This document shows positions 48,621 through 62,940 of a stretch of 64,000 nt of DNA, piece by piece. The first letter of the stretch is position 1. Each line of letters starts with the position of its first letter. The notes beneath the pieces were generated by a model. That model did not search any database. It saw only the letters and a list, made by a program, of their open reading frames with translations, and had not been told where the DNA came from. The DNA lies in the NCBI GenBank assembly GCA_032622095.1, contig CP136063.1:26166987-26230986 (forward strand), read 5' to 3'. Position numbers and translations under genes: made by a program. This DNA is from Siphonodentalium dalli (taxonomy: Eukaryota; Mollusca; Scaphopoda; Gadilida; Siphonodentaliidae).

Positions 48621-51600
48621 GACAATGTCATGTTTGAGCTCATGCCATAAGTTTGCATCCGTCGTATGTCTGTCCATCTGCATGTGTGCGTCAGTCATCA
48701 ACAATTTCGTTCGCACATCCCAAAGCTCACATCTCTCATCTGATAGTCACCAAACTTCATATAGATCTTCAGCGTGACATCTAGATAGGAGCTATTGATT
48801 CCACAATTTGATAAAAAACTATTCCATTGGTGGCCATCTTGTATTTCCAAATTTGAATCAATCGGCACACACTGCAGCCTGCATTTACAGTTAAACCTGT
48901 TGTGAAGGACCAAACATTTTGCTGAGCCAAAAAGGTTGTTATAACAGGTGGTCAATGACGACAGTTGGGGGCCAGTGAGTAGATTTTGAGCAGGTATACC
49001 CCCATTCCAAAAAGATGGTGGGCATACTGGATTACATGGATCCGTCTCTCCGTCTGCTCATATATCTCAATCATGGGTAATCGGATCCCAATGATATTTG
49101 GTATACAGGTTTATCAGACAGGCTTTCCAAAAAAGTTTTTTTCCATTCCAAGAGTTATCCCTATTTGTTGTCTGAAAATGTTTGATATCTGTCCGTCTGC
49201 TCATATATCTCAACCATAGATCATTGGACGTTATTCACATTTTCCGTATAAGAGTTATCCCTCTTTGTTAATCTGAAATTGTTTGATTTCTGTATGTTAT
49301 TTGTCAGAAATGTTAAGTGATTTGTTCATTCACCACATTTTTTTCACAATTTGGTTTCTGACCTGTCCTACTAGTATTTTTAATTTTCACCATGGAGGTA
49401 TCCCAGCACCCTTTTGTAACCTCTTGTTCTTTTTACTCAGGTTTGTTCTCAAATAAAAATAGAAAAAACAAACTAGTAACATTTATTAATAACAAATTTA
49501 ATAGACGTTTATACAAGCAACAGGTAAGGCTGAAAATATCTTCTCATTGTCTAAATTCTCTCTATTATGTACGCTTTTGATTCATTCCTGTCAAATCGGG
49601 GGAACGTAGAGGCATTGCTGACAGTTCCTGTTTGGGTGTGGAGTAGTGGACTTTAAGAATGGTCGGTGAAATATCATCTCTGGAGAAATAAAAAAATATC
49701 AAATATTTCAATATTGATACCACTGAGTTATGTAAATGGTGCCTGCCATAGTGACAGGCACACTTAAGGGAATTTAAAAAAATTATTTGCAGACTTGAAT
49801 TCGACTGGACTATCACTGGCCTGCATGCGTTGTATTCTACGTTATGTGGTCGAGATTGTCTGGTGTAAACCTTGCCGGTGCATCGCACATCTAGGAATTT
49901 CGAATCCGTCACGTTATCTTCGAAGGCCGTTGGATGACTGGTGTCGATGCTGCTGGTGATATCTCTTGTAATATATCGGGGTCGTCACTTCTGGCATTGT
50001 GGCTGGTGTTGGGTGGGCATATGTGCGTTGACCAGAGATGCTCCCAGGGTTCGCACGCATATACTGAAAACTTGAAGTTACTGGAGATAGGAAAATAATA
50101 CTGGAAAGTTATGGAAAAATCACTCCGCAATGTCTGAGTACTTGAATATACTGGAATCGGCCGATTTTAGGTAACACCGGTCATTGGCACCGGTTGTTAT
50201 TTTTCGTAACACCGGTAAACACAACGCTGTGCTTTCTGTTTGACCATTTATTTTCTTGTGTCTTAAGCCGCTTACACATGGAAGCGGCGCGGTTATCTAG
50301 CGAGTAAACTTTTTGTCATCACTGCGAGAGTGTGTCGCTTTCACATGGCCGCAGCAGAATAATTATAAACGCCCGAAGTATTGTGTTTCATAACATTAGT
50401 TTCTAAAATGGAGGCAGTGTCTGATGACACTTGTTATAATAGCACTGGCATATTTGTATCGACAACGAAAAAAGAAGAGAAATAGAAGGTTTTTGATGCA
50501 ACGGTAAGGGGACAATCGTCTGTGCTGGAAGATCTGGGTTCTCAGCATTGTAAAATATCTGGGAGATTCTTAACCCTCAGCTCACAACTTTCGAAAAATG
50601 TGGGAGATGTGGGAGCTTGAGTTGCCGGGTTATTTGCGCAACTTTTCTTCTTTTGAGCCTCTATTAATTCCGTAATTGCTTTTCCAACAGGATCATCTCG
50701 TTTTCCCCTTTTTCCTACCTTTGATGACAATACATATGGTATCCTTCTCTGTTTACACAATTAACATCGGGTTAAATTTTATTATGACGTTGTGCAGATG
50801 AGAGAACTGATGTGTAAGGGCTAAATTCGTAGAAGGTATTTATAGAATTTTTGGGGATTTTCCTTAAATTTGAGGTAGTACTACATGACCCGATGAATAT
50901 GTGTGGAATGCTTTGATCTGACAGTGATTAAAAATGTCACCGCGCGTCGATTGGCAAAGTAAACAATGACTATGTACATACAGGTTGTCTATCTGATTGC
51001 TTGTAGATACCACTTCCAGAAAATATGCCATACGATTTGCTAGGCGAATAGGGCGCACTTAGGTTTCACATTGGGCGCACCTACACATTAAAACAAATAT
51101 AGACAGAAAACCTAAATTGCCCCTTCACAAGAATATATTTATTGGCGGAAATCTGTGTGCGTTGGATAGTCGAATCTTTTCTGCAAACTTCCAGGGTAGG
51201 CTTTTTTGACGACCTGTCATCTAACAGGGGCAGTTCAACTTTGACCCGAATCTGGTCTTATTTTGCATCAAATTTTAGGGTATTGTCCATACTGACGTCA
51301 CGCTTTACTCTCATGTTGTGCCCAAACCCGACAAATCTGCCCTGGCGTTCATCTAGGTTGTTTGGCATTGACAAATATGGCCTCGCATTCATTAAAGGGG
51401 CATCATTGGGCCCAAAAATAGGTCGAAAATGGTAATTTCGGTTCTACAACGAGAAGCAGAAATGGCATCAGAGGGGTTAATTTGTAATTTTATTGGATGG
51501 CTCCGGTGCCAAATAAGCTGATGCATCGCGTGCTTTGTTTACAATTTGTTGAACAGAGCGAGTGACGTTATTATCCTGGAAAGCGATTCCCAAAATAGAC

Positions 51601-51910
51601 TAATTTATGCACGTCAATCATTTTGGTGCCAAGAAACGAAAGTAGGTTATGAAAGTCGTAAATACTTCCGCATAATCATGGAGTCCATGGCGACACCTGT
51701 AAAATCAATGTCTTCGCAAATTAAACATTTATTTAACGTATGCAATTGTGTGTATTATGTGGTTATTTGTTTGAAGGGACACGCATAACAAAAACGGGTT
51801 ATAAAGTTGAAACTGTTGCTTTCAGTGACTTTTTATTCGAACACAAACAGCTCACTGTTTGAGCCCATACACATGCAGGCCAAAACTCATATATATGTAC
51901 ACGAATAAAG
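48621..51910. other. 3.3 kb without a recognised gene
   Basis: Part of 48985-49270 repeats CCGTCTGCTCATATATCTCA and AGAGTTATCCCT in the style of the dispersed repeats elsewhere. A minus-strand frame at 50542-50760 (CELRVKNLPD near its end, basic start) is faintly like the BESS/MADF class, but I would not call it a gene. A minus-strand frame at 49565-49912 shows no domain. Confidence 0.3.
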
Positions 51911-51916
51911 TCCCAA

Positions 51917-52190
51917 AATAAGGTGTTTGCCATTTGCAGAGTGAGGTCCCCAGAGGATGAATTTAGATGCCAACCCTGCATAGTCGGTTAGCATCACCAA
52001 AATTAACCCCATGTGGACATCATTTTGAACCTAATTCTCCATGGTTGATACATGTAAAGGCCCAAACGGAATGGGGTTCCCAGAGGGTAAATTTGGTGAT
52101 TGTAGCCCACATTGCGAGGTAGTATCACTAAATTCACCATCTGAGGACCTCACTCTGCCAATGACGGTTACCTTATTTCGAGGCTTCCAT
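51917..52190. mobile_element. Decayed foldback element (CCCAGAGGG family)
   Basis: AAGGTGTTTGCCATTTGCAG with GAGGTCCCCAGAGG at the left and CTCTGCCAATGACGG at the right are diverged versions of the ends and stems of the elements at 37733 and 53336. Confidence 0.6.
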
Positions 52191-52232
52191 AGAATGCAGG
52201 TACATGTACTCATTATTCATTACCAGGTATGA

Positions 52233-52514
52233 TTAGTCACTTTCGTTGGAGTCCTCTGCAGAGTGAGAGTAGTCAGATTCTCCAGAAAGTACCAGCAGTC
52301 GTTGCTCAATCTCATTCATTTCATCACGACATAACCTACAATCACAAGATACCGCACATAAATCACAGCATGAATGCTTTCTTCCCTTCAACTGGGCACT
52401 GGAACGCCCGTCATCACTGAAGTATTGGAAGAGAATATTTCGTCGACACTGTCCTTCACATGGATTTTGGTGCCACTTTTCAAAAGTGCAATGATCTTGC
52501 CATCCAGTGTCCAT
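52233..52514 (-). pseudogene. RecQ-like helicase C-terminal fragment
   Basis: The peptide contains PCEGQCRRNILFQYFSDDGR and HSCCDLCAVSCDCRLC. A C-RR...L..YF segment followed by a paired-cysteine knuckle is the zinc-binding module that closes the helicase core of RecQ-family ATP-dependent DNA helicases. An acidic, serine-rich tail ends the frame. The helicase motor is not present upstream: the sequence there (52560-53120) is LINE ORF1 on the same strand. So this is either a terminal exon separated from its gene or, more likely, a fragment of the multi-copy RecQ-like genes seen in molluscs and cnidarians. Confidence 0.65.
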
Positions 52515-52559
52515 TTATTTTGTACACTATCGTGTGAGTTTAACTGATTTTAACAGTTC

Positions 52560-53120
52560 CATATTCCGTCCAGTTAAGCTTTCTGTGATCGCTAACTTGA
52601 TCGCACCATACAGGGTACAGTTCTTAAGTTTCCTCTCAGACATGAACAGATCATGTTTTACATCATGTCTGGTCAATCGCTCTATTTTGCTTAGCAAACC
52701 TGTGTTCTCCCGATTTCCTTGGGTTCTATCGGAACTTTGAGGGCGTCATGAAAGATGTCGAAGGCTATTTTGTTGGTGTTTCCATTTTCCTTTTCAGGCA
52801 CTCCATGAATTAACAAGCAGTTCCTTCTGCTGTATTGCTCTAGGTTATTAACCTCGTCTTTCAGCTTCCAAGTTGTCTACCCTCAACTTACACACTTCAT
52901 TGTCTAAGTCACTTAACCGTTGTGTTATAGAACTATCATTTGAACAATCTTCTACTGCTTTAATAAATTCATCATTCGTCACAATGGCTTGGATCAAGTT
53001 GGCTTTCGTATTGTCATCCGATAGAATTTGATTTACTATTTTGTCTGCCAAATTTTCGACCAGTTTTTTTCCTGCCGATCTGTTTACATTGACACTGGAA
53101 GCCCTGTCTACATATGTGGA
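52560..53120 (-). pseudogene. LINE ORF1 (coiled-coil RNA-binding type), partial
   Basis: On the minus strand the first part gives MADKIVNQILSDDNTKANLI and QRLSDLDNEVCKLRVDNLEA, a coiled-coil-like helix. The next frame gives NNLEQYSRRNCLLIHGVPEK, then FDIFHDALKVPIEPKEIGRT. The EQYSRRN...GVPE motif is the signature of ORF1 proteins of L1/Tx1-type LINEs. Frame changes after LEAE and beyond GRT show it is inactive. Its reverse-transcriptase ORF is not present downstream, where a RecQ-like fragment lies instead. Confidence 0.8.
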
Positions 53121-53335
53121 TCCACAGACTACAATGTGGTAGTTTTAGGAAGAATATCTGCGAATGAATAATAATCACAATATTAGTTGTTTAATTACAT
53201 AGTTTCAATTTGTGTAATGATTCAATTTGCCAGGGGTAATGTTTTAATCTGTGTAATGAAGTCATGAGGCGAACTTTGACTAAAAGGAAAACATAAGATG
53301 TGTGCATCACTTGGAGGAATGCTTTCAAGCCTTGA

Positions 53336-53476
53336 AATAGGGTGTCTGTCATTTGCAGAATGAGGTCCCCAGAGGGTGAATTTGGTGATGCTAGCCCGCT
53401 ATGTGGGGTAGCATCACTAAATTCACCCTCTGGGGACCTCATTCTGCAAATGACAGACACCCTAGTTCAAGGCTTG
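53336..53476. mobile_element. Compact foldback element (CAAGCCTTGAAATAGGG)
   Basis: A 141-bp near-perfect hairpin: CAAGCCTTGAAATAGGGTGT pairs with ACACCCTAGTTCAAGGCTTG and the stem continues through CCCAGAGGGTGAATTTGGTG. AATGCT flanks both sides, suggesting a 6-8 bp duplication. Confidence 0.85.
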
Positions 53477-53535
53477 AATGCTGTAAAGATGTATCCACTG
53501 GGATGGAATACAAAGTGATAGATTTAATTGAGGTA

Positions 53536-53749
53536 CAGTAATGCCCTAATTAATCGACTCCTTAACCACAGCAGAATTATGGTTAACTTTTCAGGATTCA
53601 GTCGGAAATATGGCTTGTTGCCATTCATCGGAAAGCTCTCCCCGAGAGCTTTCCGATGAATGGCAACAAACCATATTTCCGACTAAATCCTGAAAAGTTA
53701 CCCATAATTCTGCTGTGGTTAAAGGAGTCAATTAATTAGGGCATTACTG
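53536..53749. mobile_element. Hairpin MITE (CAGTAATG family), intact
   Basis: A complete 214-bp hairpin between TA dinucleotides. It gives the clearest consensus of the family: CAGTAATGCCCTAATTAATC, CTCCTTAACCACAGC, GGATTCAGTCGGAAATATGG and a tip of GAAAGCTCTC. Each arm contains one TTAA, at the CTCCTTAACC junction. Confidence 0.95.
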
Positions 53750-54033
53750 TAGTCCAAAGTGTACCCCGTCAGTTTTTCTTAGTATTCTCTGTCAGTTTGT
53801 CTGAAAGTTTTTGTGACAGGACATCTCGACACAGAAAGCATTTGTTTTCCCATGCAGTAATGTCCTAAATAATTGACTCCTTAACAAAAGCAGAATTATG
53901 GGTAACTTTTCAGGATTTAGACGGAAATATGGCCTGTTGCCATTCACACACATTCTCACAGAGCTTTCTGATGAATGGCAACAAGTCATATTTCCGACTA
54001 AATCCTGAAAAGTTACCAATAATTCTAATGTGG

Positions 54034-54059
54034 TTAAGGACTTTGCTAACCCATTTTGG
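54034..54059 (+). repeat. Left TTAA target site and terminal inverted repeat
   Basis: TTAA (54034-54037) is followed by GGACTTTGCTAACCCATTTTGG (54038-54059), which pairs with 60952-60973 with one mismatch. Confidence 0.9.
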
Positions 54060-54214
54060 ACAAAAATAAAGGGTCAAAAAAACACATTCAAACTCATTGC
54101 AAGCACATGAATTGACTTGCATACAGATCTATGAACATCTTTGACATGTTCAAACCATGTGTAACCTCACCTTCCATTAAAAATATGCTTTTATTCAGGG
54201 TTAAATTTTGCAAA

Positions 54215-54231
54215 TTTTCGAACCCAAAATC
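54215..54231 (+). repeat. Left subterminal inverted repeat
   Basis: TTTTCGAACCCAAAATC, 177 bp from the left end, is the exact reverse complement of 60768-60784. Symmetric placement suggests a transposase-binding site. Confidence 0.7.
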
Positions 54232-54239
54232 TAGAAAAT

Positions 54240-55120
54240 GGCGCAACCACTAAAATCATCATGGACACAGAAAGATGTAAAAATATGCCATTTGAGATAT
54301 CTGACGCATTGTCTGTTAATTGGCCGAAATCCCATATGTAAAAATCTGACTTGATTTCTCGGTTACGCGTGCAGTTACAACGAAGTTAGGTAAACAGACC
54401 GCGTTAACAACTAATTTCCAAGTGTATGAACAGCGATCGTGTAAATGCACAAATATATATATTGACTAAATGAAGCAGAACTCGGGGGCATAACTTACGA
54501 ATATGTACCAAGAGCGAGATCTTCAATTAGATGCTTGAAAATGTAATATTATTTTGATAACATTGCGATGGCGCAGCACAACCGTGTGATAACGAAACAA
54601 ATCGCCTCGATTTTCGAATTACAGGGAACTTGAAACTCGAATTTAATTATGCAATAGACAGAAGCGTAATTTAACATATTGCCATCATCAACTCACAACA
54701 AGAGTACGTAGAAGTAAAATTATATATACTAGAAACATGGAACTATATTGATTCACACAGTGCAAAATATCGCTACGCGGAGAACTGGTTTCAGGAATTG
54801 TCTGAGAAGTTCATGGCCAGAATTTCTTCCAATGAGATTCTAAATATACTGTTAGTGTGATTGCAGATGTTTTGCACATGATAAAAACATCGAGTAAGTA
54901 GAAAATACACATCCGATTATTATTCCTGATCGCTAATTGATTTAAGAAATAAAAGGTGAGTAACTTGACCGTTACAATTTCAGCACGTGTTTGTATATTG
55001 TTGTTGTTGTTTCCAGGTAAGAAATAACATTGTTTTATTACTAAAAATGTATTGTTTTTAGTCCTACTTGTTCAGTTGTGGTTTGTTTATGCACGAAATT
55101 AGGACAGGTAGGTTTAGAAA
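54240..55120. other. 5' leader and promoter region of the transposon gene
   Basis: No coding sequence. The pyrimidine-rich stretch ending TTGTTTCCAG at about 55017 could be a 3' splice site for a leader exon. No TATA box is placed with confidence. Confidence 0.4.
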
Positions 55121-58100
55121 ATGAAAAAAAATTATATTAGTAGAATAAAACGAAAATCCAGCGTGTTGGCACGAAATAAGGTTACCCACATCAGTATAGA
55201 CATGGGGTCCTCTCAAAGATACCAATATACTCGAAAAGGAAAGTTTGGAAAAAAAAGTGGTCGATTCAAGAAGAATGTAGTTAGATCAAATGTTCCATCA
55301 AGCCATAAATCATTTCATAAGTCCCACCATGAAAAAAGGTATACTATGACAAACATGAGTCAGGAATCACAGGATGCTCTTAAGTTTCGCATAAGCCGTG
55401 ATGTTGATGATGATATGCAGGTTGTGACTGACCGGAATGTGTATCATGTGAAAAAGACTGTTGACAATGACCAGAAGGTTACATTGATTCTGCAGAAGAA
55501 GAAAGCCATTGCATTAGAAGGTTACCGTGTTATTGACTTAACCAATCTCAATGTCCACATAAATAATATTGCCATACATGTAGCCGAGTGTCCTGCTGCA
55601 TTGTCCAGAATTGCTTCAAACAAACAACCATACCAGTTAATAACAGAATCTAAACGTTATGCCTTGGCCTCAATTCTACTAGCAAGATGCAATGGCTGTC
55701 TGCAGAGCTTTTACTTTCATACAAGTAAAACAACTGATTTCCAGACCAAAAAGTTCTATGATGTTAATGCCAGGGCAGTTTGGGGGCAAATGGTGACAGG
55801 AGGTGGTGCGAGTTGTCTCAATGAGCTTTCCGCAACGTTCGACATGCCAGGTATGAGCAGGTCTACATTCACCAAGATAGAGACTGGCATTGGTCATATT
55901 TGGGAAGAAAGTATACAGAAAGAAATGTTGCAGGCAGGTTGTGAGGAACGACAGATTGCAATAGAGAGTGGGAAGTTCTGTGATGGAATACCAGCAATTA
56001 CAGTCATCTGCGATGGAGGTTGGAGTAAGCGATCGCACAAACATTCGTACAATGCGGCTGGTGGGGTTGCCATCATCATCGGTGCTGCCACTAAGAAGAT
56101 TCTCTACATGGGCATCCGCAACAAAAACTGTTCTATATGTATTAAACATGAAAATCTCAACACCAATCCTCCTGATCATGAGTGCTATCGGAATCATACC
56201 ACTAGCAGCCAATCGATGGAAGCAGACATAATTGTTGAGGGATTTCTTGCTGCGGAAAAGATGCACGGTGTTCGGTTCAAATGGATGGTTGGCGATGGCG
56301 ATAGTTCTGTCTTTGCAAGAATTCAAGAAGAGGTTCCAATCTGGGGAGTGAAAGTTGTAAAGATTGAATGCGCTAACCACATGACAAAATGTTTACGAAC
56401 CAGATTAGAGCAGCTAGTGGAAGACAATCCCCATTATAAAGGAAAGAATAATCTGACCAAAGTGAAAAGAGTGAAGATCGTATCATGCGTCAGATCATCT
56501 ATCAAATACAGATGTGATAATCCATCCACTGATTCTGCATCTACAATCTTAAAGCTAAAAAATGACATCATGAATTCAGCTTCTCATGTTTTCGGGATCC
56601 ATGATAAGTGCTCGGACTTCTGCAAGGCAAAGGCAAATGAACAAAAAGAGATTGGTTCAACTCACGGTAACAAATCTAACAATGAAGAGCAGGGAAATAA
56701 AGCAGACAGCAGTGACACGGAACCGGTTGAACAGGAAATTCTGAAGGAGATGGAAGATTATTGGACAGAAGGGATGTCACCAACAGAACTGACTGAGGTG
56801 AGATCCCTTGATGCCGATGCTATTGATATAGATCCATCACTTCATAATGATATCCGCTTCCATCTGAATCGTCTAGCTGAAAAGGCCGACAAACTTGTTG
56901 GAAATGCCACAACCAACCTTGCAGAAAGCTGGATGAACGTGCGAATGAAATTTGATGGTGGAAAGGTAAGAAATCGATGTAACAGAGGCTCATGGAATTT
57001 CCGCTGCTATGGCGCACTGCTACGAAGTAACATGGGACCAAATTGGGCACCGATTGCATGGGAACAGGCGACAGGTACTCGAGCTGGAAGAGCCTTCAAA
57101 GATGAGTACTCTAAGAGGAGAAAGATGATTAAACAGGCAGCAGTGTACCAGAAGAAGAAAGATTATAAAGTGAAGCGGTGGAAAAGAAAGATAAGAGCAC
57201 TGAAAACCAACATGACGAAGAAGGCTAGACTGGAATATGGTCCTGAATCCATCCAAGTGTCCAATGATTTAACACCAGAACAACTGCAAGACAAGATCAA
57301 ATGGTACTACGAGAAAGAAATCAATGTGTCTGAAACAATTTTAAAGCATGTCGAAGAACAAACAGTGGAACAGTCATTGTCCGGTTATTGGCTAGCTGAG
57401 AGAAAGAAGAGAATAACAGCATCCAATTTTTCAAGTATCGTCAAGCGTCGGAATACCATCCCTGTGAAGAAACTTGTAGAAAAGCTCTTGTACTCAACAT
57501 TTGCAGGAACAAGACTTACTAGACGAGGGCTTAGACTTGAAAAATTTGCCATTAAGGAATACATCCAATTTAAGAAGGACAACAGTGAAGATGTAAGGGT
57601 TAAGAAAATGGGACTGTTCATTGATAGGGCTCATCCTTTCCTTGGTGCCAGCGTTGATGGTCATGTGACAAGTAGCACACATGGTGAAGGCGTGCTTGAA
57701 ATTAAACATGTTCTTCTGAACAAGGGTTTCATGTTCCAAGAAGCTGCTTTGAAATCAAAGGTCTTCTGTTTACAATATGTCAATGGAGAACTCTCACTGA
57801 AGAAAACACATGCTTTCTACCATCAAATTCAAGGTCAACTCAATGTTTTGAATCTTGAATGGGCTGATCTTGTTGTGCGGCGGGTGGATCCCCATCAACT
57901 TCACGTTGAAAGAATCAATCGAGACCCCATCTTGTGGAAGGACACTATGCTACCAAAACTTGAAGCATTCTACCATAAGGCTATACTTCCTGAGTTGGCA
58001 GCTCCACGTAATGGCAAGAAGCCTGGCATCCGGGAGCCAGGAAATTGGGTAATTAATTCACCTTACTCCTAGCAACCAATCAAATACTAACACAAATGCT

Positions 58101-60272
58101 TAAAACTTGTAGCATGTTGCATGCATAAACTATTTTCAGTTATATGAACTAGTATCATGATGAATGTTTGAACCAAGTAAAAGGTCAATAACCACGAACA
58201 TACCGTTATTACATGAGCTGCTGCAACAATGTTACAATGTAGTTTCACTACATATATATTGATTTTTCTTGCTTTCTTGAATTAAATGTGTGTATTATGC
58301 CGTATCATCACAAGACGAAAATCCATATTATCATACATACATGTACATACATACATGTAGAATAAATGGTTTTCACACTTTTCAAATTAATTTATTCAAT
58401 GTGTAAAGGTCAAAACCTATGTATTTTATGTATACCACACTTCAGACTTCTACACCATATCTTGTAATATTATTACTACCAGGGGTGCCCAGCTTGCTTA
58501 CATGTAGGTAATGAATGAGCAAATTATTAGTGTTCCTTCAAGTTATTTCAATCAATGATTGGTCACCTGCAGTCGATATCACCTGTTGCATGAAGATCTC
58601 TACATGTAGCTACATAACATGTAACCTCTATCTTTTAAGTTGTGACTAAACGCTCTTTAGTGTTCATTATCACTGCCTTCATATATGTTATTATGATTTA
58701 TTTGTTTCCCTTTGAGTCAACTGAGGTATAATGCACCTATTTACTAATATTCCCCTGGTTAGTTGACCCCTGTGGAACAATGTTCCTACATGTGTACATA
58801 CCATCTTCAGCTGATAATGAACACTCATTATTGCTCATGTGCAGTATATGATCATTCTCATTTAGTGTCAACTGCAGCTAACTAACTGTATGGTACTGGT
58901 GGGTCAATTTACCGGTACCTGTGTTTACCAATATTATGTACCAAAGGCAGCCGTTTACATTATAAAAATCAGGAGTGGCTCTTCAAATCATCTGAGGTCA
59001 AAAGCACATATCCCATGACACAGTCCTGGTCAATTTACCCCTGTGTAAAAATTTGCAGCTCTGATGGTCTATTCGTTGCCCATAGACATAGTCACGCAGA
59101 CAAACAAACAACCAAATGAAGTTTTATTAGTATAGATCAATGTACATGCTGTTACAATTCCATTTGATATACATACTTATCTTCACTTTTCTTACAGTAC
59201 CCTGTAACGGCAGTCAGCTTGGCAAAAAAAACTCCAGCTCCAAAGAAGTTCAGACCTCCTGCAGGACACCCAAAGACCAAAGTCAAAGATCCCCTGGTAA
59301 ATGTAACAGCACAAGAAAGCCCTATCATCAAACACATCAAAATCGGCTACAGCCATATCACCCACGACGAAGGTATCAACAGGAAAGAGGGCACGGACAA
59401 AAAAGACACAGGTTATTGCCAGCACCACAAGTGAAAGTGCAACACCCTCTGACATTGTGTTGTCAGACTCTGACTTCAGTGAAGAAAGATCTTTATTATT
59501 CGTGCACAAGCATATTCTTCATGAATGGGAGGATGAGTATGGCAGAACAAAATGGTACAGTGGGATTGTTAGTGATGTCTTAGATGGTGAAGATGGAGAT
59601 GAGGATGCTGTATATGAGGTAAGTTGTCTGTATATTGTTGAAAGTGTTGAAATAACAGTGGTGGTGTTGTGGTGTAGTATGTTCACCGATTTTCTGCCCG
59701 ATATTTCATCAACTGCGACTCAGAGTGTATCATAAATATATATTTTTAATCAATGTTTCAGAAGTATACTGGTAGTATTTTTAGATATAAATTTGTCGAC
59801 TACATGCATGATTAATATTGTTACATAAAGTTCAGAATTCATCTAGTCATTTCAGGTGCCTGATAATGGTGTCAGCACAATTATTCATTAAATATAAAAT
59901 GCCCAAACCTGGCCCAACAACCATTATTTGGTAATGAGACATAGAGTGAAATTGCTATCACTACTATTAATTTAAGCCTAAATCTCCAATCATCACAGAA
60001 TTCGGCCATCACAATTATTAGGCATCTTGAGAGTAAGAATATTGCATTTTCATTTTTTGTTGGTGGCAATATATCGCTTCAAAGTGTGAGAAAATGTGCT
60101 GCATGTATTACACAATGTTTCCTCATTTAACGTGTGCTTCAACGATTGGTGATTCTCTAACTTTCAGGTGATGTACGATGAAACTGGTGAAGATGACAAA
60201 TATGAAGTAGACTACAGTGAGTTGGTGGATGACTATCTAGCTGGATCACTGAAGTGTGTTGATGATTTGTGA
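55121..60272 (+). CDS. Mutator-like transposase fused to YqaJ nuclease and Tudor-like tail
   Basis: Exon 1 (55121-58048) codes 976 residues and ends at a TGG/GTAATT donor. Residues 1-80 are basic (KGKFGKKSGRFKKN). A Mutator-like transposase domain spans about 190-610: D298 in CDGGW, D392 in VGDGDSS and E602 in NLAESW are the likely DDE triad. A Cys/His insert (NCSICIKHEN...DHECYRNH) and SMEADII lie between the acidic residues, as in that family. A basic linker follows. The YqaJ (lambda-exonuclease-like) domain spans about 760-945, with LGASVDG (D846), GVLEIKH (E860, K862) and HAFYHQIQGQL. Downstream exons (59198-59618 and 60168-60272) add a disordered linker and a Tudor-like module ending VDDYLAGSLKCVDDL. 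The product should bind the element ends and cut at TTAA; the nuclease may process DNA ends. A second ATG at codon 28 has the better +4 G and may be the real start. Confidence 0.85.
58049..59197 (+). other. Intron 1 of the transposase gene
   Basis: It starts GTAATTAATTC directly after the last in-frame TGG and ends CTTTTCTTACAG, a good acceptor. If unspliced, translation ends after seven more codons at 58072, giving a 983-residue protein with no Tudor-like tail. No other gene is visible inside. Confidence 0.7.
59198..59618 (+). CDS. Transposase gene, downstream coding block (linker and first half of Tudor-like domain)
   Basis: From the acceptor at 59197 the frame of exon 1 continues YPVTAVSLAKKTPAPKKFRP but stops at 59434. 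The Tudor-like half (LHEWEDEYGRTKWYSGIVSD, then GEDGDEDAVYE) is in another frame and ends at a GAG/GTAAGT donor at 59618. A 115-nt intron at 59297-59411 (GTAAATG to GACACAG) would join the frames in phase 0, but its acceptor lacks a pyrimidine tract. The alternative is a single frame change. The block is lysine- and serine-rich before the W-Y-x-G core. Confidence 0.6.
60168..60272 (+). CDS. Transposase gene, last exon (end of Tudor-like domain)
   Basis: After the acceptor TAACTTTCAG the frame reads VMYDETGEDDKYEVDYSELV then DDYLAGSLKCVDDL and stop. Together with WYSGIVSDV in the previous exon this gives the alternating strand pattern (W-Y-x-G-x-V, then Y-E-V-D-Y) of Tudor-like chromatin-binding barrels. 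The phase-0 junctions on both sides agree. Confidence 0.65.
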   Translation: MMYDETGEDDKYEVDYSELVDDYLAGSLKCVDDL

Positions 60273-60767
60273 ATTTGCCTGCACCTGCTCCCCTACTATA
60301 CATGTGCCATACCATTCATACCGTGAGTATTCATATGCTACGCTTTACTTGTGGATTCTATTATTTGTTGGTTGATTGGTAAAATATTTCTTTGTATGGG
60401 CAAAGTAATATCTTGTTTGTCTGCAACATTGTGATGATTTGGCAAGCATGGGGTTAACATGATGACAAATACATGTTAATAATGCTAAATTGATCTTTTA
60501 GTTAGCAGGACATGCAAATGTCCTCTGTTTGTATTAATTGTTTTGTGTTCTGAATGTCATGACTTTTTATACAATTGGGCCTCCATACCTTTGCTGTTGA
60601 AATAGTTCCAGCATTTGATATCTATTTCAAAATGCATACAAGTGTTACAACTTCAATTTTAGTCAAGTTTAATCCTAAGTTCTACATGTCTCAATTGTAC
60701 ATCGTTCATGGATATTTAATTCAACTATTCCCTTACACTGTTTTCAGGTTTGATGTTGGACTTTGGT

Positions 60768-60784
60768 GATTTTGGGTTCGAAAA
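60768..60784 (-). repeat. Right subterminal inverted repeat
   Basis: GATTTTGGGTTCGAAAA is the exact reverse complement of 54215-54231 and lies 189 bp from the right end. Confidence 0.7.
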
Positions 60785-60951
60785 CTTCACTTCAAATAAT
60801 TGTGTTCAAAGACAACATTTTGATAATTTGGGTAAGATATTCCATTAAATAACATCTATTTCACTTCACAGAACATATTGGAACTGAGTTTGGGTTATAT
60901 GGTAGTTGAAATCAGCCGGAATCACTTCATAATCGACCTATGAAATTTTTT

Positions 60952-60977
60952 CCAAATTGGGTTAGCAAAGTCCTTAA
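60952..60977 (-). repeat. Right terminal inverted repeat and TTAA target site
   Basis: CCAAATTGGGTTAGCAAAGTCC (60952-60973) mirrors the left end with one mismatch and is followed by TTAA (60974-60977), after which the host MITE resumes. Confidence 0.9.
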
Positions 60978-61011
60978 GGAGTTGATTATTTAGGGCATTA
61001 ATGTACTAATA

Positions 61012-61260
61012 AATGCCAATAGATGTAACATCTGTATGGTCGGCTACTTGTTAACTCAAAGCGTGGGTCCGTGAGTCATTATGATTATCGAAAGGCATGT
61101 CAATAGATGTAACATCTGTATGGTCTGCAACTTGTTAACTCAAAGCGTGGGTCCGTGAGTCATTATGATTATCGAAAGGCATGTCAATAGATGTAACATC
61201 TGTATGGTCTGCAACTTGTTGACTCAAAGCATGGGTCTGTGAGTCGTTACGATGATCGGT
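61012..61260. repeat. About 85-bp tandem repeat, three units
   Basis: AATAGATGTAACATCTGTAT and GGGTCCGTGAGTCATTATGA recur three times; the third unit is diverged (GGGTCTGTGAGTCGTTACGA). Confidence 0.85.
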
Positions 61261-62200
61261 GGGTGTGTCTATGGCAGCTTTTAACCTCCCAATCAGGGGT
61301 CAGCACGTCGTTATGAATCGGTGGGTGTGTCTGTGGCAGCTTTTAACCTCCCAATCATGGGTCAGCACATCGTTACGATGATGAGTGTACATCAAAGTAT
61401 ATAGTTGTAACTCCCGCGGAGGGATATGTATAGTGTCTGCTAGTGAAAACCAAACTTGGTTACCTCCCCTCAATGATTCAGGTGTATAGAGTGTCTGCTA
61501 GTAACAACCAGCACCTCCCCTTCACAGTGAATCAGGTGTACAGTGTCTATCAGTAACAAATAGGCTGGGTTACCTCCCCTCACAGTGAATAAAGTGTACA
61601 GGTTACAAGCAACTAATTATATAGAGTTACGCTTCTTGAATTTGTGTAGGGAAACACGAGTCAGCATAAACAAAAATTCTGGCTGCTGATTGGTTGATTA
61701 TCATTGAGGGAAATATCCCTAATCGGGAACAGAAAATCATAGCCTACGTAAATATGGCGATTGTGTATGTTTAGATGTCCAGGAAGAGTCTGGTTGTGTC
61801 CAGAAGTTACGGAAGGGGTCTGGGTATTTTTATGCTGCTGATTTTTGTGCAGTAAATGGGGTAGTTGTGGAAATGCAAGATTATCGTTTGAAAAAAATAC
61901 CGAAAAGGGCCCGTTTGTTGTCACATACTGGTGCAGAGGATGACCACTTGATGTTCAAATAGGCCAAACCCATGGCCGGCGAGACGTTTAGTTAACACTG
62001 TCGCCTGTGGAAAATAATTAGGTGTTTGTAACCTATAGTCTGTAACGACTAGGCTGTGTTATCTCCCCTCATAGATTCAGGTGTATAGAGTGTCTGCTAG
62101 TAACAACCAGGCTGGGTTACCTCCCTTAATTTGCCTGTGGACGACACATATAACTGAATCTCTTATCAGGGGTTACCTCCCTTGATCTGCCTGTGGACGA
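61255..62200. repeat. Loose repeats without a gene
   Basis: GGCAGCTTTTAACCTCCCAA occurs twice (61272 and 61335). GGTTACCTCCC and AGAGTGTCTGCTAGTAACAA recur from 61450 to 62130, interrupted by unrelated sequence at 61630-62030. No gene. Confidence 0.6.
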
Positions 62201-62293
62201 CAGATATAACTGAGTCTCATCAGTAAAAGAAAGCTGTATTAACTATAATAACTGATAGATCTGAGTTGGTCATTAGCAAGAAATGTAGCTAAA

Positions 62294-62517
62294 CCCTTTC
62301 AGTGCCAGGGGCCGATCTCATCGGCCCTAATTTACGGTCTGTAAAATCGGACCAAAAAAAAAAAAAAAAACATGTAAAAAATTGTAAAAAAATAATAACA
62401 AATGATGAAAAATTGTTAGGCCAATGCATTCTCTTATTTATGCGAGGCATATATAAGAGAATGCATTGGCACAGGGTATATGGGTTGATACAAAAATCGG
62501 ACCTGGCACTCAAAGGG
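62294..62517. mobile_element. piggyBac-like MITE, same family as 20849
   Basis: CCCTTTCAGTGCCAGGGGCC at the left and CCTGGCACTCAAAGGG at the right are inverted ends. TTAA follows on the right (62518-62521); the left flank reads TAAA, a one-base change. It contains a shortened palindrome of the double-hairpin family whose central 15-bp core is lost. Confidence 0.85.
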
Positions 62518-62769
62518 TTAAAGGTGGATTATCTCTTTGTAAACATGTATTATATAGTTACCGTGGTATAAAATATTAGATCTGAATCGAAGACTCCTGT
62601 CCGGAAATAATTCTATCGATTAATATTCATTTTATTTAGAATATTTTCGGGTCTAAAAAAAAGTGGTTGTTTACATGTAGCTGGTTACATGTAGTGGTTA
62701 CTGAGACCAGAAATTTTATTGTGAATTTTGTGACAAATAAACTAATTATCCTCGTTATCGCTTATAACT

Positions 62770-62940
62770 ATGGAACAAAACAATACAAACAATCAATCTG
62801 GGACTTTGGATGTTCGGTTTGTAAACATAGAAACAGCCGAGTGCTCTATATCACTATATGATATCATCCGAATGGTCTGTTCTGAAAATAGACAAATAAA
62901 CGGGCCAAATAAAATATTCAGAATAAAATTAATATTAATT
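62770..62940 (+). other. Short open frame of unknown nature before a hAT element
   Basis: The frame starts MEQNNTNNQSGTLDVRFVNI and continues ETAECSISLYDIIRMVCSEN; it was continuous to the hAT insertion site. The ATG has a good context and the first 40 residues look protein-like, but no family is recognised and there is no splice signal to support an exon. Confidence 0.25.

Follow-up and report, generated by a model that had tools for sequence, protein, structure and literature searches.

The element, its copies and its insertion site

The stretch of DNA analysed here (the window) comprises 64,000 nt of the forward strand of contig CP136063.1 (26,166,987-26,230,986) from the Siphonodentalium dalli assembly GCA_032622095.1, and the genome searched amounts to 2.23 Gb in nine contigs. 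The window carries an element of 6,936 bp (54038-60973) with a copy of TTAA at each border (54034-54037 and 60974-60977). Its 22-bp terminal inverted repeats (54038-54059 on the plus strand and 60952-60973 on the minus strand) differ at one position, and the arms including TTAA reach 32 nt at 94% complementarity. The terminal bases are GG..CC, which is the RR/YY form, both in this element and in its two-ended copies. A further inverted pair of 20 nt (54212-54231 and 60768-60787; 95%) is located approximately 175-190 bp inside the ends. It includes the subterminal motif TTTCGAACCCAAAA at 54216-54229 (plus strand) and the inverted copy paired with it at 60770-60783 (minus strand), placing the motif at base 183 counted from the left and at base 195 counted from the right. 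The TTAA flanks, the ends with a single mismatch and the subterminal repeats had all been described in an initial annotation, and each is present in the window sequence. Directly to the right of the insertion, short tandem repeats with units of 84 and 62 bp occupy positions 61013-61378.

The host of the element is a fold-back repeat with many copies; an intact repeat of this kind lies just upstream (53533-53752), with the same TTAA region and no insertion. When the two flanks were joined at one TTAA and employed as a 106-base query, 40 scored places matched nearly the whole query, 39 of them at 92-95% and one at 100% (C3:26515906-26516011). The latter place is inside an inverted duplicate of the window surroundings, approximately 290 kb away on the same contig, which matches the window at 51078-54043 and 60974-62772 (long pieces at 95.6-98.4%) and does not contain the element. 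Across the empty junction, 14 of 1,129 aligned bases differ. Since the empty duplicate has one TTAA and the window two, with the element between them, the 4-bp TTAA duplication is shown directly, and this duplicate is the decisive evidence for insertion at TTAA. It could have never been occupied, could have lost the element exactly, or could represent a misplaced haplotype.

The copy nearest to that of the window, L018, is separated from it by 38 substitutions in 6,910 aligned bases and six gaps. Set against the 14 differences in 1,129 bases at the site, this fits an insertion after the duplication, if the rates were alike. The insertion of the window copy looks recent, as previously inferred, the signs being the short distance to L018 and the empty site; a search for empty sites had been recommended, and it yielded this paralogous one with its single TTAA.

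The copy set consists of 13 members, the window copy and 12 others (L031, which aligns in pieces of 64-82% identity, was left out); genome searches score the best candidates, and copy counts are lower bounds. Both ends are preserved in seven of the 13, each copy having TTAA on either side; five possess the left end only, again with TTAA, and L029 has neither by the pattern used. In the seven two-ended copies, homology to the window ends at TTAA or within nine bases of it. These copies and the single TTAA of the empty site confirm that the limits of the element are known to the base. The initial annotation had also staked its reading on a second copy with the same ends existing and on such ends being flanked by TTAA; this search was run, and same-end copies with TTAA were found. 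The subterminal motif is present on the left in all seven two-ended copies, albeit displaced by inserted sequence in L024, and on the right in six (not in L023). L023 and L028 share a left flank and count as one duplicated locus, not as independent insertions, and L025 holds 2,755 N. One sibling copy (L021-L022; G000:C1:82033216-82044353) contains four tandem repeats of a segment of approximately 1,136 bp from the transposase region.

The ends themselves are far more numerous. The exact 16-bp core of the left end has 1,052 matches in the genome (531+521), mostly after TTAA, against 0+1 for the reversed control; with TTAA included, 980 exact matches (504+476) are obtained, against 0+0 for the reversed pattern. 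The TTAA-plus-end matches thus exceed chance. Thirty loci were sampled (the first 30 listed ends, all on C1), and most of these ends belong to small non-autonomous elements. They include 12 different elements with both ends, 238-1,366 bp long, seven of which measure 941-961 bp; TTAA is found on both sides in 11, the remaining one having TTTA at the right. What they have in common with the large element is chiefly the outermost 20-24 bp together with the subterminal motif, and little else is shared. The motif occurs at both ends in nine of the 12 (up to two mismatches), at one end in another, and was not found in the two shortest; its position is 182-185 bases from the first base of the left TTAA. 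This pattern suggests that end and subterminal motif together form a bipartite recognition site. The small elements would use the transposase of the window family. At G000:C1:218805627, 218809240 and 218812853 (minus), three element ends of the same orientation are spaced twice by 3,613 bp.

The transposase-nuclease gene and its C-terminal tail

The main coding exon (55202-58048, plus strand) encodes a DDE transposase (PF20700) and a nuclease of the YqaJ/lambda-exonuclease type. It is part of an open reading frame of 983 aa (55121-58072), the stop of which falls 24 bases beyond the likely splice donor at 58049; the ATG at 55202 probably represents the conserved start. A Pfam scan taken to an E value of 10 returned three matches in all: PF20700 at residues 166-498 (E=1.8e-82) and YqaJ at residues 757-909 (E=2.8e-13), both over the cut-offs, and Viral_alk_exo (E=8.1e-8), which also passes. 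YqaJ is a nuclease of the lambda-exonuclease kind, and a weak lambda-exonuclease match in NCBIfam that falls below the cut-off is in line with this. Against solved structures, the nuclease gave a weak match (E=0.23) and the transposase part had none in the PDB up to E=10; the fold predicted from the nuclease sequence alone had a mean pLDDT of 38.7 and was not used.

The window family was aligned with three other families (L062, L064 and L065) at 44-49% identity. The residues D298, the GDGD motif (D392/D394), C417/H420 and E602 are invariant in all four, as are a CCHC finger (C337, C340, H353 and C355), an HHCC finger (489/494/497/501) and, in the nuclease, E807, D846, E860 and K862 (E, D, E-x-K). 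By motif, the DDE residues are present, with a C/DxxH signature between the second D and the last E. The window copy and L018 differ by five synonymous and four non-synonymous changes in 964 codons. For pairs of the window copy with L023, L027, L028 and L029 (dS 0.27-0.57), dN/dS is 0.23-0.30, and the gene was therefore under selection; values for L026 and L030 are 0.32-0.37, and those of close pairs range over 0.21-0.76. The pattern fits past selection, followed by decay of single copies.

Two further coding exons are predicted on the plus strand, at 59198-59618 and 60168-60272, the latter ending a conserved, weakly Tudor-like tail; the exon at 59198-59618 is out of frame in the window copy. 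The tail stays open in L018, L019, L020 and L023, four of the seven parsed copies, whereas the window copy, L021/22 and L030 have it out of frame, the last two being parsed in part only. An open main exon is present in the window copy and L020; in the others it is interrupted or partly N, and L020 has no sequence around the splice donor. Consequently, main exon and tail are both whole in none of the 13 copies (one of them partly N).

It is unlikely, in our estimation, that the main reading frame alone makes up the gene, in which case the window copy would be fully intact and the downstream tail would lie outside the protein. The frame does contain both enzyme domains, its stop follows the predicted donor by only 24 bases, the tail is open in only four of seven parsed copies, and the splice signals of the second intron are changed in L023. 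Against this, the tail is kept in four other KolobokE-type families at 38-66% identity and with similar exon borders. The Tudor likeness is weak: the match of the L062 tail is below the cut-off (E=0.13) and two other tails have no match. We favor the longer gene with a spliced tail. The long intact gene of the initial annotation is accordingly upheld for the transposase-nuclease exon, which is open, and does not extend to the C-terminal exon; for the window copy, the suggestion that a single gene is intact and possibly active does not hold up. As the tail exon is out of frame, this copy probably makes no complete protein, and its present activity is unproven.

Placement in the KolobokE lineage and proposed mechanism

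The element is very probably a KolobokE-lineage DNA transposon whose target was a TTAA within an older fold-back repeat. In the portion of Kojima and Bao (2022, PMC9587614) used here, KolobokE is a cut-and-paste transposase joined to a lambda-exonuclease-like nuclease, and a CCHC finger past the first D is common to KolobokE, KolobokP, KolobokD and Kolobok5. The window element displays the features of the superfamily, namely a TTAA-specific 4-bp duplication, 5'-RR/YY-3' termini and a DDE transposase with C/DxxH, and those of the lineage, with YqaJ after PF20700 and the CCHC finger downstream of the first D. The earlier proposal of a TTAA transposon with a transposase-nuclease gene is supported, and the transposon is of Kolobok type. 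The sister family L062 has TTAA and GG..CC ends as well. By the published description, the window element represents a new family within an already known lineage.

The transposase domain is named Mutator-like transposase in Pfam (PF20700), which hints at a Mutator/MuDR element, an assignment that we consider very improbable. MuDR elements duplicate about 9 bp of their target; the duplication here is the 4-bp TTAA, and the assignment is rejected on this point despite the Pfam name. The C/DxxH signature, while in keeping with MuDR, is shared by MuDR and Kolobok, and the element has Kolobok-type zinc fingers, one of which is absent from MuDR according to the same portion of PMC9587614. A piggyBac element, of the other TTAA superfamily, would account for the 4-bp TTAA duplication but has next to no probability, being refuted by domain content and termini: there is no such transposase domain among the three Pfam matches (E up to 10), and GG..CC ends are of the RR/YY form which, in that portion of Kojima and Bao's work (PMC9587614), separates Kolobok from piggyBac.

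Our literature search found no paper linking Kolobok with YqaJ, nor one on PF20700, and a search for YqaJ with a TTAA transposon found only bacterial-element work.

DDE transposases perform cut-and-paste transposition. The TTAA duplication against an empty site, the common ends, the domain composition and the conserved residues of catalytic type are observed; beyond these, the following course may be envisaged. The transposase would recognise the 20-24-bp ends and probably also the subterminal TTTCGAACCCAAAA site some 180-190 bp inside each end, cut the element out and join it to TTAA. The lambda-exonuclease-type nuclease probably trims DNA ends, either where the donor site has been cut or on intermediates of transposition, and the C-terminal tail may bind chromatin in copies that keep it in frame. 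The many small non-autonomous elements would rely on these ends as well. The window copy would have arrived recently, and would probably no longer give rise to a complete protein.

Sister families and comparison with known Kolobok elements

In all four other KolobokE-type families that were read (L062-L065), an SGNH/GDSL-like ORF is located upstream of the transposase-nuclease gene (L062:2227-2940; L064:1465-2181; L065:964-1728; and L063, reverse complement 1-510, truncated where the fetched stretch ends). These ORFs encode approximately 240-260 aa (170 in the cut L063), have 25-52% mutual identity and show GDSL/SGNH motifs by eye; the Pfam GDSL match of L062 is below the cut-off (E=0.014), and L064 and L065 have none. 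In the window family, the search for such an ORF gave no significant match (best E ~0.1). At 25 of 62 PF20700 places, an SGNH-like ORF is located upstream on the same strand, at a distance of no more than 6 kb, a figure which is no genome-wide rate, as 62 of 115 PF20700 places were compared with 33 of 150 SGNH places picked as seemingly near. A script search found no TTAA ends for L063, L064 and L065, the fetched stretches of which may stop short.

Two further observations concern relatives of the window family. A sister KolobokE-type family has open frames of 1,017 aa with equal scores at three places (G000:C1:177539428, C6:65067765 and C9:20782169), and may have been active more recently than the window family. 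L066 (G000:C2:178172000-178178500) is a tandem array with a period of 4,495 bp, a PF20700 ORF of 603 aa and eight evenly spaced matches on C2; on its opposite strand, an ORF of 134 aa resembles a His-Me finger nuclease by eye. This array resembles the published KolobokP multimers.

We tentatively propose, at slightly less than even odds, that the fuller KolobokE is a two-gene transposon, combining an SGNH-hydrolase-like gene with a transposase/lambda-exonuclease/Tudor-like fusion and a bipartite site, and that the window family is an SGNH-less branch that has nonetheless spread with a large non-autonomous following. The words SGNH, esterase, hydrolase and GDSL are absent from the text of PMC9587614, and in the portion used here the accessory parts of KolobokE do not include an SGNH-like ORF. 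A literature search for SGNH with transposase in DNA transposons gave reviews by title only, and in a broader search none of the ten matches listed contained the word Kolobok, which does not imply absence from print.

The site evidence for this KolobokE family is unusually clear. With limits exact to the base, one occupied and one empty site, a candidate recognition architecture for its transposase and abundant non-autonomous followers, the family opens the function of the attached nuclease to testing. The parts list described for KolobokE would grow by the conserved tail and by the SGNH-like partner seen in sister families. The portion of PMC9587614 used here does not mention the tail, the subterminal motif or the SGNH-like ORF of the sister families. 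Xenopus Kolobok, in the part of PMC6004289 drawn on, has the same TTAA target, RR terminal bases and a DDE transposase; it usually carries a THAP domain, with no nuclease mentioned, whereas the window element has no THAP in the Pfam scan. The window element does not fit KolobokP, since no long direct repeats occur at the element ends (among the 20 of 29 repeat families shown) and the nuclease matches are of the YqaJ type only. In the portion of PMC9587614 used here, KolobokP shares superfamily, TTAA and CCHC finger with the window element; it has long direct repeats at its termini and a nuclease of the His-Me finger kind, whereas the ends of the window element are short and inverted and its nuclease is of the YqaJ type.
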